This document shows, in pieces, positions 14,970 through 30,744 of a DNA stretch of 52,334 bases (position 1 is the first letter of the stretch; the number at the start of each line of letters is the position of its first letter). The stretch lies in the NCBI GenBank assembly GCA_016839445.1, contig JAEOUG010000058.1:1-52334 (forward strand). The letters run 5' to 3'. Origin of the DNA: Candidatus Thorarchaeota archaeon. GTDB taxonomy: Archaea; Asgardarchaeota; Thorarchaeia; Thorarchaeales; Thorarchaeaceae. The notes under the pieces are model-generated. The model was not told where the DNA came from and searched no databases. It was given only the letters and a program-made list of their open reading frames with translations. The translations under genes and the position numbers were made by a program.

Positions 14970-15482
14970 CTACGTCTCTTCTTCTTTTGAGTCAGTTACA
15001 AAGGGGTGGTTTCTGAAGTAGTCCTTCCTCAGCTCGATAGCTTCCTCAATATCCTGGCGTCGCTCTGGTCGCATTCGCTGGATTTGCGAGTAGTACTCCT
15101 TAGTTTCTTCGATCTCTTTAGTGTCTAATCCGTGTTGCAGAGATAATTGCTCCAGCGCATCTAGCATTGTTGAGTAGATTGGAAACCAGAAAATGTGGTC
15201 CTTTGGGCTTGGCACATACATGTAGGGATTCCGTTCCTGAGTCACCTCTTGGGAGGCGGCCCACATCACTAGCACTCTGTCGTAGATGTACCCCATGATG
15301 AGGAAGACGAACAGGATCAGACCCGCGAATGCAAGAGGCCCGAGTGCACCCATGTTGAAGAAGAAGGGAACATACCCCACATAGAGACCTGCGAGAACCA
15401 TGACACCATAGAAGAGACCCCAGATTCCTCTAATCTGCAAGATTCTCCATTGCTGTTTCATAAGCCACTTTCTTATTCTCAA
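14970..15482 (-). CDS. Membrane protein with one copy of a two-helix module
   Basis: 170 residues from TTG 15482; the start overlaps the upstream stop in TTGA. It opens with KWLMKQQWRILQIRGIWG, has two membrane helices (YGVMVLAGLYVGYVPFF and LAFAGLILFVFLIMGYI), then YD, RNPYMYVP, and a cytoplasmic tail with MRPERRQDIEEAIELR and RNHPF. The same pattern occurs twice in the neighbouring 351-residue protein. I do not recognise a family with a known function. The pair is surely co-translated. Confidence 0.72.
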   Translation of the reverse strand: MRIRKWLMKQQWRILQIRGIWGLFYGVMVLAGLYVGYVPFFFNMGALGPLAFAGLILFVFLIMGYIYDRVLVMWAASQEVTQERNPYMYVPSPKDHIFWFPIYSTMLDALEQLSLQHGLDTKEIEETKEYYSQIQRMRPERRQDIEEAIELRKDYFRNHPFVTDSKEEET

Positions 15483-16534
15483 TTCAATCGTGCCTCCTCA
15501 GTTGTTACTCTGAACGTATCTCCGAACTCACGGCGCAACTCTCTTGCTCTCTTCATGTCCCCATCCTGAGCGACATCGAGACTGAAGTACTCCTGGAGGA
15601 ATTCCATAATCTTGTCAACCTTCGACGTGTCTAGCCCATCCCTTTCGAGCAGTTGCCTCAAGATGGTGAACATGGTGTAGTAGAATGGCATGAAGAGCGT
15701 ATACAGACTTGGCTCGGCTAGGTAGCTGTACGGGTTCCGCTCGATTCTGACAGTGGTGTCGACAGACCAGATGTACAGCTTTCTGTCGTAGAACCATCCA
15801 ACCGCTGTTATCATGAAGAGAATCGGGATAGTCACGATGAAGATGCCAAGGATGAGATATGCTACTGGCACCATCCCGTCCGTGACTACATCTGGGAACA
15901 GGAACACTACATAGACTCCAGCAATGACCAGAGAGTCCTGCGCCATTCCTGTGAGTTCCTGCACCCAGTTAAGCCGCAGGGTCTGGGTCTCGAATCCGAG
16001 CATGGCTCTTGATCGAAGGCCGACCTTTCCGCTCTCAGGGTCCCCGGTAGGATTGAACGGATGGTTTCTCATGTATTCCTCCCCAAGACTCTGCGCTGCG
16101 TTGATGTCATCCTTCTCAGGTCTGAATGTGTAGTTCTTGGCTAGGTACTTCTCCAGCTCTCCTAGCGACTTGTCGTCTATTCCAAGCTTCCTGAACAGAC
16201 TGTGGAAACTAGAGATGGCAATGTAGAGAACTGGGTATTCGAGAGCGTACGCCTTGTAGTTGGGAACGCATCTATACGGGTTCCTGTCAATATTCACCTG
16301 GAGCTTTGCTCTCCACATCCTTGCCTTCTCATCGTACAGCCAACCGATACCCATGAAGATGAGAATCAGTACACCGCCGAGAAGTACGGCGCCGAGGAAG
16401 CCCAGGTCCGCCAGAATGGGGATTTCCTCGTAGTAGACCCTGCCAAGTGCGAGCATTCCCATCCCGAGACTCATCCATGCTCGAATGGTGCCCATCCGCC
16501 AGTACTGCTTCATAATCCACTTGGCTATGCTCAA
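15479..16534 (-). CDS. Membrane protein with two copies of the same two-helix module
   Basis: 351 residues from TTG 16534. The start is supported by the paralogue downstream, which begins with the same pattern (KWxMKQxWR...IR). Copy 1 covers about residues 1-165 and copy 2 about 185-345. Each copy has two membrane helices, then WxYD, RNPY and a helical cytoplasmic domain with a conserved Gly-Ile/Leu-Asp; copy 1 ends in RNHPF like the neighbour. With that neighbour the locus has three copies. The function is unknown. Order and overlap suggest that the products form one complex. Confidence 0.72.
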   Translation of the reverse strand: MSIAKWIMKQYWRMGTIRAWMSLGMGMLALGRVYYEEIPILADLGFLGAVLLGGVLILIFMGIGWLYDEKARMWRAKLQVNIDRNPYRCVPNYKAYALEYPVLYIAISSFHSLFRKLGIDDKSLGELEKYLAKNYTFRPEKDDINAAQSLGEEYMRNHPFNPTGDPESGKVGLRSRAMLGFETQTLRLNWVQELTGMAQDSLVIAGVYVVFLFPDVVTDGMVPVAYLILGIFIVTIPILFMITAVGWFYDRKLYIWSVDTTVRIERNPYSYLAEPSLYTLFMPFYYTMFTILRQLLERDGLDTSKVDKIMEFLQEYFSLDVAQDGDMKRARELRREFGDTFRVTTEEARLN

Positions 16535-16641: not shown

Positions 16642-17619
16642 CTAGTGATAGTAGGGTATCATCCTGTTCAAGATGTAGCCCTTGGGCCTCTCCCCAGAAA
16701 CGGGCCAGAGGAACTCCCTATCGGGCTTCATTGGCTTGTACTTGAACTCCTTGAGGATGAACGGGAAGAGCCTATTGACAAGATGCACTTCAAGATGTGT
16801 GATTTCCTTCTTCCAGAGGTGCAGATTCTTCGCAGATATGCCTGAGAACTTCAGTCCCCTGCTGCTATTGCCTTCCCATGCCTCTCCCATTGTCGTGGGC
16901 TGGAGTACGGATTCGTCAAATGGAATCTCAACCACCTTGCACATCCTCCGGACTGTTTCTTCTGGTTTGGTTAACAGGTCTTCGTACCGGATTACGAGGT
17001 AGTCTTCGCCCAGAATCTCTCTGTTGTGATGTAGCCTGTAGTAGCTATTCTCCAATGACCTGAGCGCATTGCCAAGGAACGGGTAGGGGCGCCCATCTAT
17101 CCTCATGTATCTCCTGATGGAGACCAGGTTGGAATAGGGGTTTCTGAGAACATGGAGGAACTTCGCGTCTGGAAACATCGACTTGAGATGCAGAGCGAAC
17201 TCAGTGTGCTCCACGGACTTCTCCACGAACCGCAGGTTGCCTGGCATGTCTTCTCTGGTCAGTGCCGAATACGATGCCTCAACGTAGTGAAGCAGTAACT
17301 CGCGCATCGATTCAGCGGGCTCTGCCATCACGTTTCTGAACCGATCAATGTCAAGTTTGCCGCGCAGGTCAGAGTCACCCATTCTCCCTCCCATTGTGTT
17401 CACTCGATGTGCATAGTCAGTGTATGCGTCCCTGATTTCTTGCAGGTCGAGTCGAGGAGGTCTCGCCTTGCGAAGCCTGTAGTCCACCCACTCACTTGCG
17501 TACTGGAAGATGTGCATCTCAAATGGAACAACGTAAAGGCCCGGACTTCCATCCAGAAGGTTCCTGACCAGACTCGTTCCTGATTTGTGCGGGCCAAGAA
17601 TGAAGATTGGAGCTTTCAT
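16642..17619 (-). CDS. Sulfotransferase
   Basis: 325 residues. The 5'-phosphosulfate loop is at the N-terminus (FILGPHKSGTSLVRNLL) and the 3'-phosphate motif later (FLHVLRNPYSNLVSIRRY). These define PAPS-dependent sulfotransferases of the Sulfotransfer_1/3 type. The enzyme would move sulfate from PAPS onto a sugar or other acceptor. No signal peptide is seen, so it should act in the cytoplasm. It is the first of three different sulfotransferases in 4 kb, mixed with glycosyltransferases and a C5-epimerase-like gene. Confidence 0.88.
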   Translation of the reverse strand: MKAPIFILGPHKSGTSLVRNLLDGSPGLYVVPFEMHIFQYASEWVDYRLRKARPPRLDLQEIRDAYTDYAHRVNTMGGRMGDSDLRGKLDIDRFRNVMAEPAESMRELLLHYVEASYSALTREDMPGNLRFVEKSVEHTEFALHLKSMFPDAKFLHVLRNPYSNLVSIRRYMRIDGRPYPFLGNALRSLENSYYRLHHNREILGEDYLVIRYEDLLTKPEETVRRMCKVVEIPFDESVLQPTTMGEAWEGNSSRGLKFSGISAKNLHLWKKEITHLEVHLVNRLFPFILKEFKYKPMKPDREFLWPVSGERPKGYILNRMIPYYH

Positions 17620-17700: not shown

Positions 17701-18513
17701 CTATTCCACAGATGGCGGCTCATACCCGTATTTGTGGATGATGAACTCCTCCGCCCTCCGTACAAGATCGATGGTGTCTGAGTCGTAGTAGTGGCTTACG
17801 CTATGCCGCTCTGATCTGTTCACCTTCTTCCTCGAGCCCTCTCTGATTGTGCTCTTCATCTCATCGGTCAGTTCGTGACCCGACTTCTCCATTGCCTCGA
17901 TGAGGTCCTCTTCGAGAGACTCAACTCTCACCAAGAGGTCGATAAGGCAGTGCTCTTCATCGTACTCCTGCAGTTTCTGCAGACTATGAATGCCGGTGAA
18001 CACGTCGTCATCGAAGAAGTCTTTCAGGAACAACTTGCAGTAACGATACGTCATGAACCCAGCGAATCCACTTGTCGCTGACTCATGATACCGCTCTCCA
18101 AGGTCTCTGTGATGTCTTGGGTCCATCACCATTCGGAGCCATTTCCGAAACTTGGAGGCATCCATAGAGTCCCCATACACAGAGCTCCATTCTCCAACGG
18201 GCTTTCTGAGCTCGTGCATGCCGTGGCTAATCGCTCCTTTCCCTATTCTCCTCAGTCCTAGCCCGGTCGACTTCTTCGTGAGTCTGTCATAGAGCCCTCC
18301 CTTATCGTTGCTCCCGTACGCCCAGAGCGATACATACCAGTCCCAAGGGTTCCTGATGCTACCCATAATCATCTTCTCTGAGGAGTAATCGGTGAGCCAG
18401 CTGTGTTTTGGCTTCACCTGTCTTCCTCCCACCGTCTTGTCAAGGAGTTGAGCTATGTGTGTGCAAGCTGACTTCTGAAGTTGAAGGAAGATTATCCTGT
18501 CCGTTTCAAACAC
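17701..18513 (-). CDS. Sulfotransferase (Sulfotransfer_2-like)
   Basis: 270 residues from GTG 18513. It begins with IIFLQLQKSACTHIAQLL, a 5'-phosphosulfate loop of the carbohydrate-sulfotransferase type, and continues with MIMGSIRNPWDWYVSLW, the 3'-phosphate motif. It belongs to the branch related to heparan 2-O- and chondroitin/HNK-1 sulfotransferases, though I cannot place it finely. The C-terminal third is helical and charged. It follows the glycosyltransferase gene by 12 bases on the same strand. Confidence 0.8.
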   Translation of the reverse strand: MFETDRIIFLQLQKSACTHIAQLLDKTVGGRQVKPKHSWLTDYSSEKMIMGSIRNPWDWYVSLWAYGSNDKGGLYDRLTKKSTGLGLRRIGKGAISHGMHELRKPVGEWSSVYGDSMDASKFRKWLRMVMDPRHHRDLGERYHESATSGFAGFMTYRYCKLFLKDFFDDDVFTGIHSLQKLQEYDEEHCLIDLLVRVESLEEDLIEAMEKSGHELTDEMKSTIREGSRKKVNRSERHSVSHYYDSDTIDLVRRAEEFIIHKYGYEPPSVE

Positions 18514-18525
18514 GCATATCCACCT

Positions 18526-19464
18526 TCAGGCATCATCTTTCTCGAAGAGCTTCAGCATCTTCTCCCCCGTTCTCTCAGCGGTATAGCCGTCGAGGATCGT
18601 CTGTCGAAGGTCCTTCTTCAACTGCATCTTCTCCTCGGCGTTCTTCTGTTTGAACTCCTCAATGAGGTCGATGAGTTCGGAATCGTACCTGTAAGTGAGT
18701 TCCTCGGGGACAAACTCAAGGATGCAGGGGATTCTATGTACGAACGGAATGAGCCCCGACAGCATTGCCTCGGCGATGGCAACTCCGAATGATTCATCGA
18801 GCGCATGATGGATGTAGTATTCCATCTCCCATTGCCACTCGGGGAAGGAAACGTTGGGTTCCAGTACATGGCTCAACCCGTACTCCTTCGCCCTCTCCAC
18901 GATTATTCGCTCCTCGGCGGAGTAGCCTCCTATGTGAAGCTGGTAGTCGCGAAGAGCGAGCATGAGGGAGTAGATCCGCTTTCTGGGAGTTGGGAGTGAC
19001 CACGTGCATATCTTGCCAGAACTACTCGGATGGAACGGCCACTTCTCAGCGTTGACCCCCGGCGGAATGACTTCTATGGGTACAGACTTAGGCACGAACT
19101 CCCTGAGTAGCTCCCCGTAGTGCGTGGAGACCGCGATGACTGCCTTCACATTATCCCAGTCCACGCCTTTGAAAATCGGCGGATGATCCAGCTCCGTTCT
19201 GTGAATCCTCATGTAGATTGGCTTCGTGGAGTTGTGACTGACCTTGTGTCCCAACTCGTCGAGGAAATCTACAAAGACGACATCGGCCCATTTGGAGAGG
19301 GACCGTATCTTCCTCCCTATTGTTGCGAACCATCTTCCCTTGCTGACCATGGACCCGAAGTTGAACGAGCTACTCCGCGGTGGAGACACGATTCGAGTGT
19401 CAAAAGGCTCTGTCCACTTCAGGAACGTTGTGTTCCCAGTGAATACTGCAAGTTTCTTCGTCAT
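18526..19464 (-). CDS. Glycosyltransferase, GT4-like
   Basis: 312 residues from ATG 19464 (MTKKLAVFTGNTTFLKW). Longer starts run into the divergent sulfotransferase gene and lie upstream of the likely TATA box. The C-terminal Rossmann half carries the GT4 nucleotide-sugar motif (DESFGVAIAEAMLSGLIPFV, with the E-x7-E acid pair), and VIPPGVN ends the N-terminal half. It would transfer a sugar from an NDP- or GDP-donor. It is probably co-transcribed with the sulfotransferase gene just downstream, which suggests that one adds the sugar and the other sulfates it. Confidence 0.82.
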   Translation of the reverse strand: MTKKLAVFTGNTTFLKWTEPFDTRIVSPPRSSSFNFGSMVSKGRWFATIGRKIRSLSKWADVVFVDFLDELGHKVSHNSTKPIYMRIHRTELDHPPIFKGVDWDNVKAVIAVSTHYGELLREFVPKSVPIEVIPPGVNAEKWPFHPSSSGKICTWSLPTPRKRIYSLMLALRDYQLHIGGYSAEERIIVERAKEYGLSHVLEPNVSFPEWQWEMEYYIHHALDESFGVAIAEAMLSGLIPFVHRIPCILEFVPEELTYRYDSELIDLIEEFKQKNAEEKMQLKKDLRQTILDGYTAERTGEKMLKLFEKDDA

Positions 19465-19497
19465 CGCCAGTACCCTGCCCACAGATGATGTGGTTTC

Positions 19498-19507
19498 TTT
19501 ATACTTT
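19498..19507 (-). promoter_or_regulatory. TATA box for the leftward glycosyltransferase gene
   Basis: AAAGTATAAA on the minus strand, about 35 bases before ATG 19464. It supports the shorter start of that gene. Confidence 0.5.
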
Positions 19508-19542
19508 ATCATCTCTTCGCAGAGAGGCTGCGGCGAGAGAAG

Positions 19543-19550
19543 CTTTAACA
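19543..19550 (+). promoter_or_regulatory. TATA box for the rightward sulfotransferase gene
   Basis: CTTTAACA lies 32-39 bases before ATG 19582, in the divergent promoter region shared with the leftward glycosyltransferase gene. Confidence 0.45.
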
Positions 19551-19581
19551 ACAGGGAGTTTCGCCACCGCATGAGGCCAAA

Positions 19582-20481
19582 ATGCTCAACGAGATCTTGT
19601 TTCCGAGGCGGTTCACGAAGACCACTGGGTTCTGGGCTCGTACTCTCCGGAGGATATCCAAGTATGGTTTCGTGAGGAGAGGACTGCTGGCTGTTGTCTC
19701 GTTGGCGGGAGGATTTAGGAATCGAGGCAGGTACGCGCAGGTTCAGCGTTACTGCATGTTTGTGGGCTACCCAAGAAGCGGCCATAGCCTCGTAGGGTCA
19801 TTTGTTGATGCCCATCCGAATGCAGTGATCTCACATGAACTCGATGCTCTCGATTTTGTGGAGAGAGGCTATGGAAGGAATAGGCTCTTCTACTTGATCA
19901 CTAGGAATTCCTACGAGTTCGGGAAAGTCGGAAGGTCATGGACAGGCTATTCCTACGATGTGAAGGGCCAATGGCAGGGAGGATACAACGAAGTCCTGAC
20001 TGTCCTTGGTGACAAGAAGGGCGGGATGAGTTCACGACGCCTCGAAAGCGATCCCGAGCTATTGGAGTCGCTGCATAGCATGACGGGCGTGCCAATCCAG
20101 ATCATCCATGTAGTAAGAAATCCCTTTGATAACATCAGCACGATATCTAACCGAAACAAGATTCCATTGGAGGAGGCCATCGAGTTCTACTTCTCTCTGT
20201 GTGACACCAACAAGGCTGTGAAGGCGAAGTCAGACGATGCACACTTCCTTGAGTTCAGGTTGGAGGAGCTCGTCGAGAAGCCTCGCGAGATTGTCCAGCG
20301 AATCTGTGGTTTCTTGGAACTTGAGGCAGACTCCGGCTACCTCTCAGCCTGCGAGGCACTCCTCTTCGAAAAGCCTCGGAGAACAAGAGACTCGGTACAG
20401 TGGGACCGAAGCCTGATAGAGCTGGTACTCGTTCGGGCAAAGGAATACGACTTCCTGGAAGGGTACGACTTCGAGAACTGA
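19582..20481 (+). CDS. Sulfotransferase
   Basis: 299 residues. The 5'-phosphosulfate loop is MFVGYPRSGHSLVGSF (about residues 59-74) and the 3'-phosphate motif is IIHVVRNPFDNISTIS. A basic, partly hydrophobic region of about 55 residues precedes the loop (LLAVVSLAGGF) and may tether it to the membrane. It differs in sequence from the other two sulfotransferases nearby, so the three probably modify different positions. It is followed 54 bases later by the C5-epimerase-like gene, which has its own TATA box. Confidence 0.87.
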   Translation: MLNEILFPRRFTKTTGFWARTLRRISKYGFVRRGLLAVVSLAGGFRNRGRYAQVQRYCMFVGYPRSGHSLVGSFVDAHPNAVISHELDALDFVERGYGRNRLFYLITRNSYEFGKVGRSWTGYSYDVKGQWQGGYNEVLTVLGDKKGGMSSRRLESDPELLESLHSMTGVPIQIIHVVRNPFDNISTISNRNKIPLEEAIEFYFSLCDTNKAVKAKSDDAHFLEFRLEELVEKPREIVQRICGFLELEADSGYLSACEALLFEKPRRTRDSVQWDRSLIELVLVRAKEYDFLEGYDFEN

Positions 20482-20535: not shown

Positions 20536-21648
20536 ATGGCCGGGCCCGTTTCTAGTTCTTCCCTATTCGGACACGTCCGGAAGCTCTTCTCTCATATCAG
20601 AAAACGTCTGCCCATCTACTTCGTACTGATGGTGGTCATCTTCGGAGTTCTGTTCGTCTTCCGCGACGAGATCTACGACAATCTCATTGAGCGACACGAA
20701 GCCGAGAATGCCGTCTCTTTTACACCGGAAGGGATTCCAATCACCGACTATGGGTGGAAACAGGGTAGATATGTTGGGCCAGTGATTAGTCCCCTCCATG
20801 TCGGCAACTGGGCCCAGACTTACTACAATCAGAGTCTGTACGGTAACACCACTGCCGGCGTATACTTCAACAACACAATCCAGTGGTTCCTGGATAATCG
20901 AGTGACAAATGAGATTGATGATGGCGGTGGTCCTGTCAACGTCAGTCACTGGATCTACAACTATGCAATCTATGACATGCCGGCTGGCTGGCGGTCCGCA
21001 ATGGCGGATGCTGAGATTCTTCATGCCCTTGCTCTTGCGTACGACTTGTACGAGAACCCCCTCGTGCTTCAGGTCTGTGACGAGGTCCTCAATGGCTTTG
21101 AGATTTCTCAGGACCTGGGAGGGAATGTCCTCGATCTCAGTGACGGGGGTGCATGGTATCCTGAGGTCATAGTCCCTGCATCACTCGACCCGACCTATCC
21201 TCACAGAAGGATTCTCAATGGGTTCCTCTTTGCTGTGGAGGACCTCTACGCAACCTATGAGCTACTGAACGAGACACGCGTCCTGACACTGTTCAATCTT
21301 GGCGTCACATCGGCTCTGGAACACATGGATTTGTACGAGTCCCCAAGGAATTGGACCTACTACCAGCTTGACCCAGAGAAGCTAGCATCTGTTCACTATC
21401 ACGGAGTCCACATACGACTCACTCAGAGCCTCTACCAGATCACAAACGACAGCACGTTCTTGGAATACAGTCAGCGCTGGGCTGGATGGACTCAGTATCC
21501 AGAGGATCCTTGGTGGGTTCTTACGCCTCGTCTGATGCTGGAAATCCAATTCGGGTTGCTCTTCATGGGTATCGCGGCGTTAGCCATCTTGGGACTTGAC
21601 CTTCTCCAGATGCACATTAGAGACCGTCTTCGTAGGAACCGCGTCTGA
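20536..21648 (+). CDS. D-glucuronyl C5-epimerase-like membrane protein
   Basis: 370 residues. Membrane helices are at about 25-42 (IYFVLMVVIFGVLFVF) and about 334-356 (FGLLFMGIAALAILGLDLL), with basic residues flanking both (HIRKR before, RDRLRRNR after), so the middle should face outward. The middle holds seven sequons (NQS, NTT, NNT, NVS, NET, NWT, NDS). Its signature segments are PAGWRSAMADAEILHALALAY, GGAWYPEV and RRILNGFLFAVEDLYATY. They match the C-terminal domain of heparan sulfate D-glucuronyl C5-epimerase (WxSAMAQ, GGxWYEE, VLNGFxFSLxGLYD). The enzyme turns D-glucuronate into L-iduronate in a polymer. The assignment is by recalled motifs. Confidence 0.78.
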   Translation: MAGPVSSSSLFGHVRKLFSHIRKRLPIYFVLMVVIFGVLFVFRDEIYDNLIERHEAENAVSFTPEGIPITDYGWKQGRYVGPVISPLHVGNWAQTYYNQSLYGNTTAGVYFNNTIQWFLDNRVTNEIDDGGGPVNVSHWIYNYAIYDMPAGWRSAMADAEILHALALAYDLYENPLVLQVCDEVLNGFEISQDLGGNVLDLSDGGAWYPEVIVPASLDPTYPHRRILNGFLFAVEDLYATYELLNETRVLTLFNLGVTSALEHMDLYESPRNWTYYQLDPEKLASVHYHGVHIRLTQSLYQITNDSTFLEYSQRWAGWTQYPEDPWWVLTPRLMLEIQFGLLFMGIAALAILGLDLLQMHIRDRLRRNRV

Positions 21649-21659
21649 GCTGTCTGGAC

Positions 21660-22658
21660 TCACTCTGCGGGTTTGGAGAACCTGTAGATGCCCCGTATCT
21701 TGCCTTCGTTCCTCTCCCACACATAGTTCTCTCTAGCATGAGCCATTATTTCAGCTGAGTCTTGCTCAGGAAGATCTGAAAGGACTTGAGGAAGGTCCTC
21801 GTACGAGTCAAACTCGTGTACATATGGGTCCGCCTTGAACGGCTCTTTGAGCGTAGATGTCAGTAAGACTTGGAGCCCTGCATTCAGGTACTCGTAGTTC
21901 TTGTTGGGGTCGCAGTACCTGTGGAAGGGATGAGGTCTCCACGGAGTGAGCCCGATTCTGTATTCTGTCAGGCCAATCATCATCTCCGGGTGAGGTACAC
22001 CTGATATGATGTTGAAGTCTACTGCATCTTTCAGACCTGTCATATCGCGGTGTGGAGTGAACTTGTCGAACTTGAAGTCACTACCAACGTAGACTAGGCC
22101 CTTCCTCCCCTCCGGGTCTGGCAGGTCGATGACCTCTGATGTTAGCGGGAAGTTGCCTGTGACCTCCACATGTTTCGATCTCTGCCTGTGCTCCGCCGCT
22201 ATGTTCTCGCTCACTGTCAGAACTGGGTATCTCTCCAGCAGGTGTTGCTCCCAACTCGGTGTCACTCTGACGAGTGGCTTGCCAGATATCCTCCTCACCA
22301 GACTTCTGTTTGAGAAGCGGAAGTCCTGCTTGCTCCAGTATTCGTGGTCGTCATAGACCACAGGGTATTCGGTCTCAAGCATCATGGCTGCGGCAATGAC
22401 ATTGTTGGCATGGACGATGTCCGGGTTGATTTCGTCTATGGCTTTGAGCCATCGCTTCTTGAAGCGCGGATCCAGTACCACGCGAAAGTGGTTTACAACG
22501 GGAATGTGATAGGTGGCAGAGAAGGCTCCGTAGTCTTGTCGGCTTGTAGGATGGCCACCCAGGAATAGCAGTTCGTGTCCTTCATTCTTCATGACGAGAG
22601 CTGTCTTCTCGATTCTTGCATCTGGGAGCCCTCCGTGAGAAGTGTGAAGAATCCTCAT
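21660..22658 (-). CDS. Glycosyltransferase, GT4-like
   Basis: 332 residues. It opens with MRILHTSHGGLPDARIEKTA and has the N-terminal Rossmann signs INPDIVHANNVIAAAM and YPVVYDDHEYWS. The second half has GLVYVGSDF and a donor-site region (YRIGLTPWRPHPFHRYCDPNKNY) of the kind found in surface-polysaccharide GT4 enzymes. The stop faces the C5-epimerase-like gene 11 bases away. It lies 14 bases downstream of the first wecB and is in the same transcript. Confidence 0.8.
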   Translation of the reverse strand: MRILHTSHGGLPDARIEKTALVMKNEGHELLFLGGHPTSRQDYGAFSATYHIPVVNHFRVVLDPRFKKRWLKAIDEINPDIVHANNVIAAAMMLETEYPVVYDDHEYWSKQDFRFSNRSLVRRISGKPLVRVTPSWEQHLLERYPVLTVSENIAAEHRQRSKHVEVTGNFPLTSEVIDLPDPEGRKGLVYVGSDFKFDKFTPHRDMTGLKDAVDFNIISGVPHPEMMIGLTEYRIGLTPWRPHPFHRYCDPNKNYEYLNAGLQVLLTSTLKEPFKADPYVHEFDSYEDLPQVLSDLPEQDSAEIMAHARENYVWERNEGKIRGIYRFSKPAE

Positions 22659-22672
22659 GTCCTGTCCTCTCG

Positions 22673-23779
22673 CTATTCGACCATCATCGACCTCTTGGTC
22701 TGTATCTCTCCTGAGGAGAGTATCTCTGCTATTCTCTCTGCTGCTCTGCCATCACCGTAGACCGAGGCATCATTGTTGGTCTTCAGTCCCCACATCTTCA
22801 GGGCCTTAGTCGATACATCCTCTGCCGTGGGGAGTGCGAGAATGTTTGCTCCTGCCTCTATGGTCTCGACCCACTCGGTGTTGTCCCTGATTGTGACGCA
22901 AGGCGTGTTCAGGAGATATGCCTCCTTTTGGAGACCTCCCGAGTCCGTTATGAGAAGGTCCGATTTGCTCACAAGAGCCATCATTGTTGTGTAGGGCACA
23001 GGGTCAACGACCTCGAGATTCTTGGGAATCTGGATTCCTGTTTCCTCCAGTCTCTTCTTGGTTCGGGGGTGCATCGGGAAGACTATCTTGCGAGAAACCG
23101 TAGCTAGCCCCTTCATGATTCCTGTCAGACGATCAGGAATGTCTACGTTCTCCCTTCGGTGAAGGGTGAGTACTGCAAAGGAACCCTCGGATATCCCTAC
23201 TTTCTTCATCTCTTCTTCTTGGTATGATGAGTTGCTGAATATCGGCAGGCGGTTCTGGAGGATGTCATACATCGTGTCGCCAGTGAGGAATACTGAGCCG
23301 ATGACATTCTCCTTCTCCAGATTCTCCACTGCGATTTTCGTAGGGGCGAAGAGACCTGTTGCACCGTGGTCGACAAGCCTTCTGTTGATCTCTTCCTGCA
23401 TGTACATATCATAGCTACGAAGCCCCGATTCGAGATGACATGTCGGAATGTCCATCTTGAAGCCAGCCAGGGCGGCGCCGAGGGCGGAGTTGGTGTCACC
23501 CGGGACTACGAGGTAGTCAGGCCTCTCTCTCTCGAGTTCTCTCTCCAATCTTGATATGACCTCGTATGTCTGATACGCACTTGTTCCACTGCCCACCTCA
23601 AGGTTGCAGTCAGGCTTAGGAATCTCGAGCTCCTCGATGAACTGTGCAGCCAACTGGAAGTCGTAGTGTTGCCCAGTATGGATGAACCGCGTTGTCACGC
23701 CTCCCTCTTGAAGAGCCAGCAGCAGTGGCGCCGACTTGATTATTTGCGGCCGTGTGCCAGTTACGAGCGTGACAATCAT
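22673..23779 (-). CDS. wecB: UDP-N-acetylglucosamine 2-epimerase (non-hydrolysing), copy 1
   Basis: 368 residues, normal length. It converts UDP-GlcNAc to UDP-ManNAc in the cytoplasm, a precursor of ManNAc or ManNAc-uronate in surface polymers. Motifs: TGTRPQIIKSAPL at the N-terminus, FIHTGQHYD, VPGDTNSALGAA, CHLESGLRSYD, EEINRRLVDH, LTLHRRENVD, FPMHPRT, ITDSGGLQKEA and NTEWVET. The usual HxEAGLR reads HLESGLR here. A second copy lies 1.3 kb away on the other strand. Confidence 0.93.
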   Translation of the reverse strand: MIVTLVTGTRPQIIKSAPLLLALQEGGVTTRFIHTGQHYDFQLAAQFIEELEIPKPDCNLEVGSGTSAYQTYEVISRLERELERERPDYLVVPGDTNSALGAALAGFKMDIPTCHLESGLRSYDMYMQEEINRRLVDHGATGLFAPTKIAVENLEKENVIGSVFLTGDTMYDILQNRLPIFSNSSYQEEEMKKVGISEGSFAVLTLHRRENVDIPDRLTGIMKGLATVSRKIVFPMHPRTKKRLEETGIQIPKNLEVVDPVPYTTMMALVSKSDLLITDSGGLQKEAYLLNTPCVTIRDNTEWVETIEAGANILALPTAEDVSTKALKMWGLKTNNDASVYGDGRAAERIAEILSSGEIQTKRSMMVE

Positions 23780-23924
23780 TTTCCGCAGCCCACCAGAAGA
23801 CGAAGAGATACAGGGTTTGTGATGAGTCCCCTTGGCTTAACTATTGAACGTTATGGTAGAAGGGGAATGCATAAGAACAGGACCAGCGGAAGTGGCACTC
23901 ACCATCACACGGAAACAGGTCCGC

Positions 23925-23930
23925 GGAGGA
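23925..23930 (+). promoter_or_regulatory. Shine-Dalgarno site that decides the 23936 start
   Basis: GGAGGA is followed after five bases by TTG 23936 and after eight by TTG 23939. It is the strongest ribosome site in this gene's 5' region. Confidence 0.5.
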
Positions 23931-23935
23931 ACCAC

Positions 23936-24991
23936 TTGTTGGTCAAGAAACGAGTTCTCCTCATAGGCACAGAACCCGAACGGATGATTCGACTGCAGAG
24001 AGTCCTCCAGAGCATGCGGAAGCTCGGCATCGATGTCCGTGTGCTTGAACCTGTTACGAAACCCCGCGGGAGACCCCGGATACTCAAGGGAATGATTCGC
24101 TATCTGACTATTACCTTCCAGATTCTCCTTGCTAGAGCAGACATCTACCACTTCTTCAACGTCCCTGACAACGTTGGCCTTCCGCTCACACTAAAGCGAG
24201 GCACACTGGTCTACGACGTTCGTGCTCCATGGGCTGCCGTCCTCCGTGAGACCTTCGGTAAGTCACCGCTCATCTTCTTGGCGAAGTTCATTGAGAGGTT
24301 CATGACCAGGAAGGCCGACCATGTTGTCTGTGTCAATCGGATGTTGGCTGAGAGGGCAGTGACATGGGGCGCCAGGTCTGTCAGGGTCATCCCGAACTAC
24401 CCGTCCGAGGACTTCGGCCCCACTCGTGACCGAGCCGAGACCAGGAAAGAGCTTGGCATTGATGACTCCTCAGTAGTGCTGTATCTCGGGAAGCTCTCAA
24501 AGGTTGAGGGTGTCGACCTGCTGATGGAGGTGATTCGATCGGCTACCCGACTGACGCCCAAGGTGAAGTTCCTCGTTGTTGGTGCAGGACCGCAGGAGAG
24601 TCAATTCAAGCGGTTCGTAGAGAGAGAAGGTCTAGAAGGCAGAGTAGTCATGACAGGATGGATTCCCCACGAAGAGGTTGCGAATCTCATTCAAGCGGCA
24701 GACCTGTGCTTGCTCCCTCGCCCCTGGGACAGCTGCTCTCCCTTCATTGGGCCTGAGTCCATCTGGAAGGCAGGTGAGTATCTCTCGCTAGGGAAACCCG
24801 TGCTGGCTCCTAGGATGGGGGGTTTTGCGACTGCGCCTTTTCCCGTGATAGCAGTTGACCCGTCCGAGATGGCACAAGCAGTTGCTGAGTTCTTCAGGAG
24901 GCCCGCCACTGGGTCAGTCCAACCACATCCACGATGGCCAGAGAGCCACAGGAGACTTGAACGTCTCTACAGGAGTCTTGGTGCTCTTTAG
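23936..24991 (+). CDS. Glycosyltransferase, GT4 family
   Basis: 351 residues from TTG 23936, chosen for its ribosome site and because KKRVLLIGTEPERM is the natural N-terminus of this fold. ATG 23867, with AGGGG before it, is an alternative adding 23 polar residues; a still longer frame would overlap wecB. The second domain shows VVLYLGKLSKVEGVDLL, FLVVGAGPQESQ, VVMTGWIPHEEVANLIQAAD, the donor site (SCSPFIGPESIWKAGEYLSLGKPVLAP) and a typical C-terminal helix. It would transfer a sugar from a nucleotide donor. A second wecB follows 77 bases later. Confidence 0.85.
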   Translation: MLVKKRVLLIGTEPERMIRLQRVLQSMRKLGIDVRVLEPVTKPRGRPRILKGMIRYLTITFQILLARADIYHFFNVPDNVGLPLTLKRGTLVYDVRAPWAAVLRETFGKSPLIFLAKFIERFMTRKADHVVCVNRMLAERAVTWGARSVRVIPNYPSEDFGPTRDRAETRKELGIDDSSVVLYLGKLSKVEGVDLLMEVIRSATRLTPKVKFLVVGAGPQESQFKRFVEREGLEGRVVMTGWIPHEEVANLIQAADLCLLPRPWDSCSPFIGPESIWKAGEYLSLGKPVLAPRMGGFATAPFPVIAVDPSEMAQAVAEFFRRPATGSVQPHPRWPESHRRLERLYRSLGAL

Positions 24992-25068: not shown

Positions 25069-26193
25069 TTGTTCGTTACACTCGTGACTGGAACACGACC
25101 ACAGATTGTCAAGTCAGCTCCCGTTCTGCGTGCCTTGGAGGCGGCTGGCATAGAGTGTGAGTTCATTCACACAGGCCAGCACTATGACTACGAGCTGGCA
25201 GGAGCATTTGTGGACGAGTTTGAGCTTCAGAAGCCTCATGATCTGGAGGTAGGCCCCGGTGATTACTGCTTCCAGGTGTATGGCATAATGGAGCGCCTCT
25301 CAGGTCACCTTGAGAAGCGGAGGCCCGACTACCTCATCATTCCCGGTGACACAACATCTGCCTTGGGCGCCGCCATGGTGGGCTTCAAAATGGAGATTCC
25401 GGTCTGCCACCTAGAAGCCGGCCTCAGGAGATACGACTATACCTATCAAGAAGAAATGAATCGGCGTCTGATAGATCATGGGTCCTCGGGTCTCTTCGCG
25501 CCCACGGTAACTGCTGTTGAGAACCTGAAACTTGAAGACGTGCTGGGAAAGGTGTATCTCATAGGAGACACGATGTACGACATTCTGAAGCACAGGCTGC
25601 CAAGGTACTCTGATAGGGCCTTCCTAGATCATGTGCTTGAGAAGATAGGAGTTGATGTCGACGAATATGCCCTTCTTACTCTCCACCGAAGAGAGAACGT
25701 AGACTCGGAGTCTCTTCTCTCGACCATTGTATCAGCAATAAACAGGCTCGACTTCCAGATTGTATTCCCAATACATCCACGCACTCGGAAACAGCTCGAG
25801 CAGTTCTCTCTGGAATTCGATTCGTCGCATGTCCACTTGGTCGACCCCCAACCGTACGACGAGTTCATGAGCCTGGTGGCCTCATCGAGGCTTGTCATCA
25901 GTGACTCAGGAGGCGTCCAGAAGGAGTGCTATCTTCTTAATGTCCCGCTCGTGTCCCTCCATCAACGAACCGAGTGGGTAGAAACCTTCGATGCGGGGGC
26001 GAACCTCCTGACTCCAATTGCAGAAGACAGAATCGTCGAGAGCTGCAACTCAATGTACGGCAAGAGACTAACCAACGACCCGTCCGTCTATGGCGATGGC
26101 AAGGCCGCTGAGAAGATCCCCGAGATTCTGAGATCTGGTGAAATCAGGATTCCAACAGATAGAACACGCAAGCCCTTCGCTGACTACTTCTGA
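25069..26193 (+). CDS. wecB: UDP-N-acetylglucosamine 2-epimerase (non-hydrolysing), copy 2
   Basis: 374 residues from TTG 25069. Same reaction as copy 1 (UDP-GlcNAc to UDP-ManNAc). Motifs: TGTRPQIVKSAPV, FIHTGQHYDYELA, IPGDTTSALGAAM, CHLEAGLRRYD, EEMNRRLIDH, LTLHRRENVD, FPIHPRT, ISDSGGVQKE and RTEWVET. Copy 2 keeps the canonical EAGLR. The two copies are similar but clearly diverged, so they are an old duplication or were acquired separately; they may have different partners or substrates. The stop codon faces the acyltransferase gene. Confidence 0.93.
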   Translation: MFVTLVTGTRPQIVKSAPVLRALEAAGIECEFIHTGQHYDYELAGAFVDEFELQKPHDLEVGPGDYCFQVYGIMERLSGHLEKRRPDYLIIPGDTTSALGAAMVGFKMEIPVCHLEAGLRRYDYTYQEEMNRRLIDHGSSGLFAPTVTAVENLKLEDVLGKVYLIGDTMYDILKHRLPRYSDRAFLDHVLEKIGVDVDEYALLTLHRRENVDSESLLSTIVSAINRLDFQIVFPIHPRTRKQLEQFSLEFDSSHVHLVDPQPYDEFMSLVASSRLVISDSGGVQKECYLLNVPLVSLHQRTEWVETFDAGANLLTPIAEDRIVESCNSMYGKRLTNDPSVYGDGKAAEKIPEILRSGEIRIPTDRTRKPFADYF

Positions 26194-26996: not shown

Positions 26997-27662
26997 TCAC
27001 TTGGGTGGCTTGTTGAATGAGCAGACAACCCCCCTGTGCTGGGCGAAGGCTTCTGCATAAGCGGCTCCGCAGTGGTGACCTTGGTATCCCATCACCGACT
27101 TCACTGCGTTGATCGTGAAGTATCCACGGCGTTCGACTTGGGACTTGTACAGACCGAGCATCTCGATCTTCTAGTTAACCTGCTCTTCCGTCAGAGGAAC
27201 GTACACCTCGGGAGTGAACCCAGGGCTATTCCCTGCAATCTCGTACGATAGCACTGACACGTCTGTCTTCATGAATGCCCTGAAGGTCTCCTCTGCGACA
27301 ACTCTGTGGTCCTGATGGAGATCGCCCACCCATGTTGTCAGGACAAGGTCGTAGTCTTCGTCACGTCGAAGACCATAGATGGTCTCCAGAATCTCCTGTC
27401 TTCTAGCGGGGAAGTCGCGAACTGGAAGCTCGTAGATTGTCAGGTCCTTGATGCCCATGTGTTTCGCCGCGGCCTCGCATTCCTTTCGGAGAATGTCGAT
27501 TGGGTGTTTGCTTGTGTCTACGCTCTTCCTACAGTCGCTGAAGACAACTGACCTCACATTGGCGCCGCTCTCGACTAGCAGTCGGACTGTCGCTCCTGCT
27601 CCCACTTCCATGTCATCTGTGTGGGCAGAGAGCACAAGCACGTTGTCAACATTCCATATCAT
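26997..27662 (-). CDS. PIG-L/LmbE de-N-acetylase, interrupted by an in-frame TAG
   Basis: The frame from ATG 27662 gives 163 residues up to TAG at 27171-27173. Past that codon the same frame continues for 57 residues to TGA at 26997-26999. Motifs before the stop: VLSAHTDDMEVGAGAT (the AHxDD zinc site) and GDLHQDHRVVAEE (the second zinc site). After the stop come LGLYKSQVERRGY and CGAAYAEAFAQ, which are the normal end of the family. The full frame of 221 residues plus stop is the usual length, and the next gene starts one base after it. Family members remove N-acetyl from GlcNAc units. It is a nonsense mutation, a sequence error or readthrough. Confidence 0.8.
27171..27173 (-). other. In-frame amber codon inside the deacetylase gene
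   Basis: TAG between EEQVN and KIEMLGLY of the PIG-L/LmbE frame. TAG also ends many genes of this window, so general recoding is unlikely. Confidence 0.7.
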
Positions 27663-27729: not shown

Positions 27730-29307
27730 CTATATCAGCCCCGCCTTCTGGGCGAACTTCCGATATCCCTTCATCAAGAGCTTGACTATGTTCCTTCTGA
27801 GAACGAACTTGATCCATTGCTCTTCTGTAGGTTCCTTGAAGAAGAGGCCGAACTGAGCGGCATAGTCATCCTCTGAGTCGAATGTGGTCAGCTTCTGGAC
27901 TGCGCCTGGAGAGAAGATGAGTTCGACGTCTGGGTTCTCAGCTCTGACTGGCCTCACCTCAATCTCATCTTTGCCGACAACTTCTACGTGGAACCTCTGC
28001 CCCTCCACTTCATAATCAATAACAGCCTCTTTCTTGAGGCCCTCGAAGATCAGCGGGTGCGCCGAGAGGTACTGCATGAACTGCTTCTTCAATTCGCTCT
28101 CTGCTGCTTCTCTCTTCTTCTTTCCCTTCTGAGCATAGGGGAGTAGGAACGTTGGTAGGTCCAGAACTGGCAACTTGCTGCCGATGTGCTTGGCACCGTC
28201 TTCGAGACCTCTGTGACAGAAGGGACACGCAGTGACAAGTATCTCTGCTCCTGTTTCTTCGGCTTCGACGATGCGATTTCCTGCTACTTCATTCGCAAGG
28301 TCACCGAAGCTTCCTTTCACTCCTCCTCCAGACCCACAGCAGTGCGCGTACCTCTTGTTCGTTTCCATTTCAACAAGAGTGACATTGTCAACTGCTTCAA
28401 TGACTCTCCTGGGCGCTTCGTAGACCTCTGCGTGTCGCCCCAGGTGACAAGGGTCGTGGTACGTCACGGTGAGCTTCTTCGGTGCGGCAAAGGTCGCCTT
28501 GCCGTCCTGTACTAGTCTGTCAAGGTACTCGGTGATGTGGAGCACCTCGAAGTCGTACTTGAGATTGCGCTGTGGTACGTCAATCTTCCAGGTCCTGAAA
28601 CATCCCGCGCACGCAGTGACCAGAGTTCGAACGCCTGCCTTATTCAGAGCATCGATATTCTTTGTGGTTATCTCATCAAAGATCTTCTCGCGTCCGAGTC
28701 GAAGCAGAACGCTTCCACAGCACTCTTCGTCGGGAATGATTGTGAAGTCCACGCCCATCTTGTCCAGAAGTTCCACCGTGGTTCGAGCTATCTCCTTCTC
28801 CCTGTACGAAGATGTGCAGCCTACGAAGTATGCCACTGGGGCCTGTTCTGGCCACTCATGCTCTCCAAACAGAGCGAGTCTCTTGTCACGTGGCTCCTTG
28901 TAGGGGTTTCCGTCTGCCTTGATTGAATCCTCGATGACCGAGTGCTTCTCAAGGTCATATCCCGCCTCAACGAGGTCTCTCCGAAGGGCTTCCATCATTT
29001 CTGGAAGGCGGATTCCCTCTGCGGTTGCAGTACACGTTTCCTGGCAGTTCTTGCACGTTGTACAAGTGAACGCCCAGTCAGCAATTGCCTTGTCAATGGG
29101 GAGCTTTCCCTCAAGCAGGTCATTCATGATCATGACTCTGCCTCTGGAGGCGTACGCCTCGAAGCCGAGTACGTTCTTTATCGCGCACGGGAGGAATACA
29201 TCACGATCCGAGGCAACAGTCTTGTCTGCGAGCGAGCAGTCTCCACATCGAGCGCATAGCCACAGGTCTTCAAGATACTTGGATAGATGTTTGAACTCGG
29301 CGACCAT
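27730..29307 (-). CDS. GlcF/HdrD-like iron-sulfur oxidoreductase with C-terminal SCP2-like domain
   Basis: 525 residues. The N-terminal ferredoxin region has CARCGDC and CTTCKNCQETC for two [4Fe-4S] clusters. Two CCG domains follow: FVGCTSSYR, EECCGSVLLRLG and TACAGC; then YHDPCHLGRHAEVYE, HCCGSGGGVKG and TACPFC. This is the build of heterodisulfide reductase D and of the Fe-S subunit of glycolate/lactate oxidase. Residues about 425-525 form an extra domain (FHVEVVGKDEIEVRPV, then DVELIFSPGAVQKL) resembling SCP2 sterol-carrier folds. The start overlaps the end of the FAD subunit (GAGTGAATG), with GGAGG before it. It passes electrons from the FAD subunit onwards. Confidence 0.87.
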   Translation of the reverse strand: MVAEFKHLSKYLEDLWLCARCGDCSLADKTVASDRDVFLPCAIKNVLGFEAYASRGRVMIMNDLLEGKLPIDKAIADWAFTCTTCKNCQETCTATAEGIRLPEMMEALRRDLVEAGYDLEKHSVIEDSIKADGNPYKEPRDKRLALFGEHEWPEQAPVAYFVGCTSSYREKEIARTTVELLDKMGVDFTIIPDEECCGSVLLRLGREKIFDEITTKNIDALNKAGVRTLVTACAGCFRTWKIDVPQRNLKYDFEVLHITEYLDRLVQDGKATFAAPKKLTVTYHDPCHLGRHAEVYEAPRRVIEAVDNVTLVEMETNKRYAHCCGSGGGVKGSFGDLANEVAGNRIVEAEETGAEILVTACPFCHRGLEDGAKHIGSKLPVLDLPTFLLPYAQKGKKKREAAESELKKQFMQYLSAHPLIFEGLKKEAVIDYEVEGQRFHVEVVGKDEIEVRPVRAENPDVELIFSPGAVQKLTTFDSEDDYAAQFGLFFKEPTEEQWIKFVLRRNIVKLLMKGYRKFAQKAGLI

Positions 29308-30744
29308 TCACTCACCTCCTGTGAAGACCCCCGGGGTGAAGATATCGCTGGGGTCGATTGCTCGCTTAATCGTCCAGTACAGGTCCAAGAACCGCGGGTT
29401 CGCCTTGGCTACAGCCCGCTTCTCCCAGAGTAGGCCTGACCAGTATGGGCATGCACCCGTATCCATGTGTGCGTCGAGCATTTCATTCCATGCCTTGAGA
29501 CCCAACTCCATCTTGTCCCTTGTCGGCACGAAGATTGTGATCCAGCCTGTGGCATAGGCCCGGTCTGATCCCAGGCAACTGGCTATCCACTTGATGCCGT
29601 TGTCCAGCAGCTTGTACTTCTTGAAGATGGCCCACATTCGTTTCATGATCTCAGGTATGGAAGGAATCGGTCTGAGGTGACAGGTGTTCAGCCAAAAGCC
29701 GTTGTTGTATAATGGTTGAACCAGATTGAACATCTCGGACCAGTGCATCTGCGATGCGAAGTTGCCGAGGTCTTTCCCACCGTGTTTGAAGGCAACTTCA
29801 CGAATTATCTCCATCTTCCTGTTTGCGAGTTCCTGGTCCACTTCCTGGACGATGGATGCGAACATGGAGTTGATCTCCTTGTGCTTGTCAAGGAAGCCGG
29901 GGAAGAACGTGTCCGTTGATTGCCGGTCGGCAAGGAGGTTGAGTTCCTCTGTGAACCCGAGCTTCTGGACTTCAAGAAATGCTGCCGTTGCATCTTCAAG
30001 TGTCTTGAATCCGAAGTCCCCGTAGGCGTAGAATTCGGCCTTTGGATAGATCTTGAGTGTGACCTTGGTCTTTACTCCGAGGGACCCGTGGTCTCCAAGG
30101 AAGATCCCTGTCAGGTCGAGGAATGTGGAATAGCGTCCAAAGATCTTGGCGTCTGGATTCCATCCAGTACCAGTCTTCACGACTTCTCCGCTTGGCAAGA
30201 CTACCTCAAGAGACACCACTCCCTCAGTGGATGGCCCGTACTTGGATGCAGCATAGCCAATGCTATTGATACTCACAGAGCCTCCCACAGTCCCCACATT
30301 TCCTCCATAGGGGCCTCTGAAACCAAGTTTGTATCCAGCTTCGTCGAGTCTGTGGATAAGCTCTGCCCATCTGAGACCCGCTTCAACCGTGACGGTCATC
30401 ACGTCTTCATCGATGCGGATGATACGATCCATCTTGACCATGTCAATCATGACTGCGTGGGGGATTCTTGGGAGACATGCCCCACAGATGCCGTTTCTTC
30501 CTCCGGCTGGCATGATAGGTGTCTTTGTCTTGGCACAGAGGCGAACAATGTCTTGCACTTGCTCCACGCTGCTCGGCATCACGACAATCCCGGGCCTCTC
30601 AGCCTCGAGATGACAGGCATCTTTGCTGTAGGACGAGATAATCACAGGATTGTCGTTGACATGTGCCTCTCCTACGATCTTAACCAGTTCCTCATAGAGG
30701 GGATGTGTTCTGCTAGCCTTGACGATGGCCATGGTCCGCACCAT
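29308..30744 (-). CDS. FAD-linked oxidase subunit (GlcD-like, lactate/glycolate dehydrogenase type)
   Basis: 478 residues from ATG 30744; ATG 30732 (MAIVKASRTHP) is also possible. The PCMH-type FAD domain is clear: IVVMPSSVEQVQDIVRLC, TPIMPAGGRNGICGACLP, VTVEAGLRWAELIHRLDEAGY, GGNVGTVGGSVSINSIG and EVVLPSGEVVKTGTGWN. The second half is the FAD-oxidase C domain, and the FTPG ending is typical. It oxidises a 2-hydroxyacid, giving electrons to the Fe-S/CCG protein encoded directly downstream. The substrate is not evident. This two-gene unit is unlike the glycan genes on both sides. Confidence 0.87.
   Translation of the reverse strand: MVRTMAIVKASRTHPLYEELVKIVGEAHVNDNPVIISSYSKDACHLEAERPGIVVMPSSVEQVQDIVRLCAKTKTPIMPAGGRNGICGACLPRIPHAVMIDMVKMDRIIRIDEDVMTVTVEAGLRWAELIHRLDEAGYKLGFRGPYGGNVGTVGGSVSINSIGYAASKYGPSTEGVVSLEVVLPSGEVVKTGTGWNPDAKIFGRYSTFLDLTGIFLGDHGSLGVKTKVTLKIYPKAEFYAYGDFGFKTLEDATAAFLEVQKLGFTEELNLLADRQSTDTFFPGFLDKHKEINSMFASIVQEVDQELANRKMEIIREVAFKHGGKDLGNFASQMHWSEMFNLVQPLYNNGFWLNTCHLRPIPSIPEIMKRMWAIFKKYKLLDNGIKWIASCLGSDRAYATGWITIFVPTRDKMELGLKAWNEMLDAHMDTGACPYWSGLLWEKRAVAKANPRFLDLYWTIKRAIDPSDIFTPGVFTGGE

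Follow-up and report, generated by a model that had tools for sequence, protein, structure and literature searches.

The window, a stretch of 52,334 nucleotides of Thorarchaeal DNA, carries an intact open reading frame with an ATG start whose product belongs to the C5-epimerase family PF06662 (C5-epim_C), and the gene is surrounded by others for sulfotransferases, glycosyltransferases, WecB and a PIG-L-type N-deacetylase (Table 1). Two of the listed gene starts in this cluster overlap a neighbour. The glycosyltransferase at 23666..24991 overlaps wecB, so its true start probably lies later. Similarly, a glycosyltransferase frame at 18526-19785 overlaps the sulfotransferase 19582-20481 on the opposite strand; since its homologue at locus L013 begins with MKKLAVF, translation probably starts some 108 residues downstream of the listed position.

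Table 1. The epimerase gene, its predicted parts and its neighbours in the window (residue numbers refer to the epimerase).
Feature	Position	Strand	Basis
Membrane-anchored C5-epimerase (PF06662) gene, 370 aa	20536..21648	+	Pfam, PDB sequence and fold matches
N-terminal membrane helix, residues 24-42, N-terminus predicted inside	20605..20661	+	Hydropathy, positive-inside rule
Catalytic domain predicted to be exposed, residues 57-322	20704..21501	+	VIA-align to GLCE 185-613; seven sequons
E210 (= GLCE Glu499) and V211 (= GLCE Tyr500, substituted)	21163..21168	+	Alignment, profile alignment
N228 (= GLCE Asn510)	21217..21219	+	Alignment, profile alignment
Y276 (= GLCE Tyr560)	21361..21363	+	Alignment, profile alignment; pLDDT ~50
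Y288 (= GLCE Tyr578, general base)	21397..21399	+	Alignment, profile alignment; role from PMC12834895
C-terminal membrane helix, residues 339-357, then basic tail predicted inside	21550..21606	+	Hydropathy, positive-inside rule
Sulfotransferase (Sulfotransfer_3), no export signal	16642..17619	-	Pfam, hydropathy
Possible sulfotransferase (Sulfotransfer_2, below cut-off, E 0.02), no export signal	17701..18513	-	Pfam, hydropathy
Sulfotransferase (Sulfotransfer_3/1), 54 bp upstream of epimerase, same strand, no export signal	19582..20481	+	Pfam, hydropathy
GT4-type glycosyltransferase, convergent with epimerase	21660..22658	-	Pfam; homologue near epimerase in five related loci
WecB, UDP-GlcNAc 2-epimerase, over NCBIfam cut-off	22673..23779	-	Homologues in L013, L014
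Glycosyltransferase	23666..24991	+	Homologues beside epimerase in L016, L017
Second WecB	25069..26193	+	Domain match
PIG-L-type N-deacetylase	27171..27662	-	Homologues near epimerase in L015, L017

The gene is found in 6 of the 227 genomes of the Asgard phylum, all from one family and recorded as Candidatus Thorarchaeota. An alignment scan of the genome contigs recovered five Thorarchaeal loci besides the window, and a single-sequence scan of the contigs recovered no relatives. Contamination is ruled out because six Thorarchaeal assemblies share the gene and some of its neighbours: a homologue of the GT4-type glycosyltransferase lies near the epimerase at all six loci, and WecB, PIG-L and other glycosyltransferases recur at some of them. 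Weak PF06662 matches in G002, G006, G011, G020 and G021 (20-25 bits) were set aside because they cover only a short stretch of about 50 profile positions; four of these five lack the membrane helices described below. Two further resemblances between loci were seen. Mutually homologous membrane proteins of no recognised family lie near the epimerase in the window (14970-16534) and at L015 (298-1914), and the same gene pair, with alike N-terminal sequences, flanks the glycan cluster in two genera (window 27730-30744; L017 12050-15079), its first member being a cysteine-rich Fe-S oxidoreductase.

The PF06662 match spans residues 142-316 (E 1e-33; 116.9 bits against a Pfam cut-off of 23.3) and covers positions 12-187 of the 188 in the profile. 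The segments WRSAMADA, GGAWYPE and LNGFLFAVEDLY, in which the initial annotation had recognised animal heparan C5-epimerase (GLCE), all lie inside this match and align to human GLCE. No NCBIfam model matched the protein. In a PDB sequence search GLCE gave the only significant matches, and a six-sequence profile searched against the PDB matched GLCE at E 2.9e-15. The AlphaFold model, built from six sequences and with a mean pLDDT of 77, has human and zebrafish GLCE as its top Foldseek matches in the PDB, and structural alignment to GLCE with VIA-align yields a Z score of 24.5 and an rmsd of 2.8 over 236 residues. In fact, the best five PDB entries by structure are all GLCE (Z 24.0-24.5), while the next fold family, D-mannose isomerase, reaches 15.4. 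A better match to a different (alpha/alpha)6 barrel family was looked for and is ruled out, as all other folds lie about 9 Z units below GLCE. The window protein is a genuine member of the GLCE family, as had been proposed. The aligned residues of the model correspond to 236 residues within the GLCE chain region given in Table 1. In GLCE, the beta-hairpin and beta-sandwich domains are used in dimerisation; the window protein does not have the length for both in full, so that some part of them is probably missing.

In human GLCE, E499, Y500, N510, Y560 and Y578 are listed as catalytic (PMC13308652), with Y578 acting as the base and E499 as the acid (PMC12834895). Both in an alignment and in a profile alignment they correspond to E210, V211, N228, Y276 and Y288 of the window protein, although the local confidence of the model around Y276 is low (pLDDT ~50). 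Four of the five are therefore kept, the acid/base pair among them, and Tyr500 is replaced by valine; two of the three catalytic tyrosines in the domain persist, so that the complete loss of tyrosines that would have spoken against the family is not seen. The equivalents of E499, N510, Y560 and Y578 are invariant in all six Thorarchaeal proteins. At the Tyr500 position, valine is present in the window protein and in L018 and L020, together a single clade of the tree, and tyrosine in L019, L021 and L022; valine also occurs in one distant archaeal homologue, L046. Consequently, the activity of the window/L018/L020 clade may be altered or lost. Since the profile match and the fold stand, the substitution bears on activity and not on kinship.

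The protein has two hydrophobic helices, with Kyte-Doolittle values of 2.46 (residues 24-42) and 2.31 (residues 339-357). Four lysine or arginine residues precede the first helix and five follow the second, and the flanks turned towards the middle domain are acidic. Under the positive-inside rule this charge pattern predicts that the two termini lie inside and residues 43-338 outside the cell. Between the helices there are seven sequons (residues 98, 104, 112, 135, 245, 272 and 304), where shuffled sequences would give 2.0 (p about 0.001), whereas the predicted cytoplasmic neighbours (n=8) have 0 or 1 each. The five Thorarchaeal relatives likewise carry 5-8 sequons against 1.5-3.1 by chance. 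The genome encodes one STT3 oligosaccharyltransferase, on contig C183 outside the window, so the sequons can be used. Both helices and their basic tails are present in all five Thorarchaeal proteins that are readable at both ends; in L021 the start is cut off and the second helix is visible. The helix at each end and the sequons between them, both noted at the outset, are thus borne out by hydropathy and shuffling, and the outward topology with two anchors is well supported by the helices, the charge of their flanks and the sequon excess.

On the other hand, outward placement is not in itself special. PF06662 was found in 27 further genomes outside the phylum, among 392 relatives including other archaea, and the archaeal proteins with a readable N-terminus mostly have a signal peptide or a single N-terminal anchor, which makes export the common archaeal arrangement. 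A C-terminal helix of the Thorarchaeal kind was not seen among the archaeal proteins of this 27-genome sample, and the second anchor looks like a Thorarchaeal addition. In a small tree the Thorarchaeal proteins form a long-stemmed clade with full support, and the animal GLCE sequences cluster with bacterial ones (94/86; only two bacterial rows), so that the tree did not recover an ancestor common to the Thorarchaeal and animal proteins that excludes the bacterial and other archaeal proteins. A Thorarchaeal gene as the direct ancestor of animal GLCE runs against this tree, in which bacterial sampling is thin.

Several other PF06662 proteins have features of their own. L045 (archaeal genome G228, outside the phylum) joins the PF06662 domain to two pseudomurein-binding repeats (PF09373) and has an in-frame TAG stop, which suggests a C5-epimerase relative that may work on or near pseudomurein. 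In L029 the domain follows a polysaccharide-deacetylase-like domain, and L031 looks alike; in L037 and L040 it is C-terminal in longer proteins with a multi-helix membrane part. In L033 (G310), L035 (G290), L036 (G366) and L038 (G348), histidine replaces the acid Glu499 (YLHY against Y.EY elsewhere), and the equivalents of Tyr578 and Asn510 are retained.

The sugar-nucleotide genes bear on the substrate. A single full nucleotide-sugar dehydrogenase, L053 on contig C28, exceeds the Pfam cut-off in the window genome, and it scores 369 bits to the UDP-ManNAc dehydrogenase model against 206-214 to UDP-glucose dehydrogenases, all below the equivalog cut-offs. Its best PDB matches are the NDP-GalNAcA (352 bits) and UDP-ManNAcA (288 bits) enzymes, compared with 158 bits for UDP-glucose dehydrogenase. 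In G218 and G019 the dehydrogenases encoded near the epimerase also belong to this UDP-ManNAc/GalNAc-like kind, and G018 additionally carries a UDP-glucose-type enzyme. No UDP-glucose dehydrogenase was recognised in the window genome, which is about 90% complete, so that one could be missing. Together with the two wecB genes near the epimerase, the dehydrogenase makes an N-acetylhexosaminuronic acid likelier than GlcA, and the target is probably of this class; a heparan-like GlcA substrate finds no support in these genes.

Taken together, the evidence makes it fairly likely that the window protein is a GLCE-family hexuronate C5-epimerase, held to the membrane by two helices with its domain outside, that inverts a uronic acid in a surface glycan, most likely an N-acetylhexosaminuronic acid. 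We infer catalytic activity, action after export and the substrate from this evidence. The catalytic domain would sit outside the cell, clamped to the membrane by its two terminal helices, and would most likely invert C5 on a uronic acid already within a surface glycan or a flipped lipid-linked glycan. In this reaction the C5 proton would be taken up by Y288, and E210 would supply a new one from the opposite face, with N228 and Y276 placed in the active site. The adjacent glycosyltransferases would probably build the glycan from the products of WecB and the dehydrogenase; with ManNAcA as an example of the substrate, the C5-epimer would be L-GulNAcA.

A heparan-like pathway, in which cytoplasmic PAPS-dependent sulfotransferases would act first and the epimerase would then convert GlcA to IdoA outside in the sulfated glycan, is unlikely. 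The three window sulfotransferases do lack an export signal, as had been stated: their maximum hydropathy is 0.63-1.14 and they have no membrane helix. One of them precedes the epimerase on the same strand and another is nearby; ATP sulfurylase, APS kinase and a further sulfotransferase are clustered on contig C26, outside the window; a PIG-L deacetylase lies near the epimerase, whose catalytic set is GLCE-like; and sulfated IdoA is known in an archaeal N-glycan, that of Halobacterium (PMC11980604). However, the stretches around the epimerase at the other five loci, which differ in length (3.8-19.9 kb), contain no homologue of the three sulfotransferases, and a genome-wide search for the Sulfotransfer_3 family found none in the carrier genomes G018 and G019, which are 96-97% complete. 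This wider comparison gives no support to a common glycan for sulfotransferases and epimerase, and a shared role would at best be specific to the window genome. PIG-L is far from specific to such a role, and the window genome has no recognised UDP-glucose dehydrogenase. Sulfation inside followed by epimerisation outside is a possible order. A scheme that combines cytoplasmic sulfation of a glycan with its export and, only afterwards, inversion of its N-acetylhexosaminuronic acid (ManNAcA to L-GulNAcA, for instance) by the membrane-clamped GLCE relative is likewise improbable. PDB sequence searches with ORFs 17701 and 19582 brought no useful match, and a literature search found no paper on Thorarchaeota and glycosaminoglycan or on Asgard archaeal N-glycosylation and sulfotransferases.

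Two other readings concern what the outward domain does. In a narrower form of the preferred explanation, the substrate would be a dolichol-linked or N-linked oligosaccharide, as it is for Halobacterium Agl32, but epimerised on the outer face after flipping. This is a tentative possibility: the genome has its STT3 enzyme, archaeal N-glycans are built on dolichol phosphate and two anchors would keep the domain near the membrane surface, but STT3 is encoded away from the window, and Halobacterium Agl32 works before export with a different active site (PMC13308652). An unlikely reading is that of a weakened or repurposed member, in which valine at the Tyr500 position, shared by one clade and the distant L046, removes or changes the activity and the protein binds surface glycan or carries out another uronate reaction. 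Against it, the acid, base, Asn510 and Tyr560 equivalents are invariant in all six proteins, which a loss of catalysis would not lead one to expect.

Among known prokaryotes, Asgard archaea stand nearest to eukaryotes, and to our knowledge almost nothing is known of the glycans on their surface. The presence of a GLCE-family enzyme that keeps almost all of the animal active site suggests that they may epimerise uronates at the polymer level by GLCE chemistry, which would contrast with Agl32, the only archaeal case to have been characterised. With an amino-sugar acid as substrate, GLCE-family chemistry would be wider than GlcA/IdoA; we know of no report of N-acetylhexosaminuronic acid as a substrate class of this family. 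Were the cytoplasmic sulfotransferases to act on this glycan, its sulfation would come before epimerisation, which is not the order in the Golgi, and the two steps would be split across the membrane; Thorarchaea would then differ from the Golgi and Halobacterium alike. With its one small catalytic domain, the protein could also be convenient for enzyme tests.

Among known systems, Halobacterium Agl32 resembles the window protein as an archaeal uronate C5-epimerase in glycan assembly. It is without the GLCE catalytic residues, is closer in fold to cellobiose 2-epimerase and works on lipid-linked glycan ahead of export (PMC13308652), whereas the window protein has the GLCE residues and a topology predicted to be outward; the Halobacterium sulfotransferases comprise one membrane-associated and one soluble protein (PMC11980604). 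The bacterial GLCE-like proteins (Bermanella RED65_08024, known from the literature, and the Priestia and Deinococcus plasmid genes) share the domain, but those of Priestia and Deinococcus group with animal GLCE and not with Thorarchaea, and the Priestia protein has no membrane helix at its start. The Priestia megaterium plasmid gene (L055) has wecB, an aminotransferase and glycosyltransferases for neighbours, a setting similar to that in Thorarchaea. The archaeal PF06662 proteins, with Methanocaldococcus jannaschii as the control, have the same domain, mostly the same catalytic residues and are mostly exported; those outside the phylum differ in their fusions, and most keep Tyr500. Animal GLCE (PDB 6HZZ, 4PW2) shares with the window protein the helical catalytic fold (at the Z score of 24.5 given above), the E499, N510, Y560 and Y578 equivalents and an N-terminal type II anchor that places the domain on the non-cytoplasmic side, as predicted here. 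The two differ in that identity in the catalytic domain is only about 25% and in that the window protein has an extra C-terminal membrane helix, valine at Tyr500 and no room for the full beta domains.
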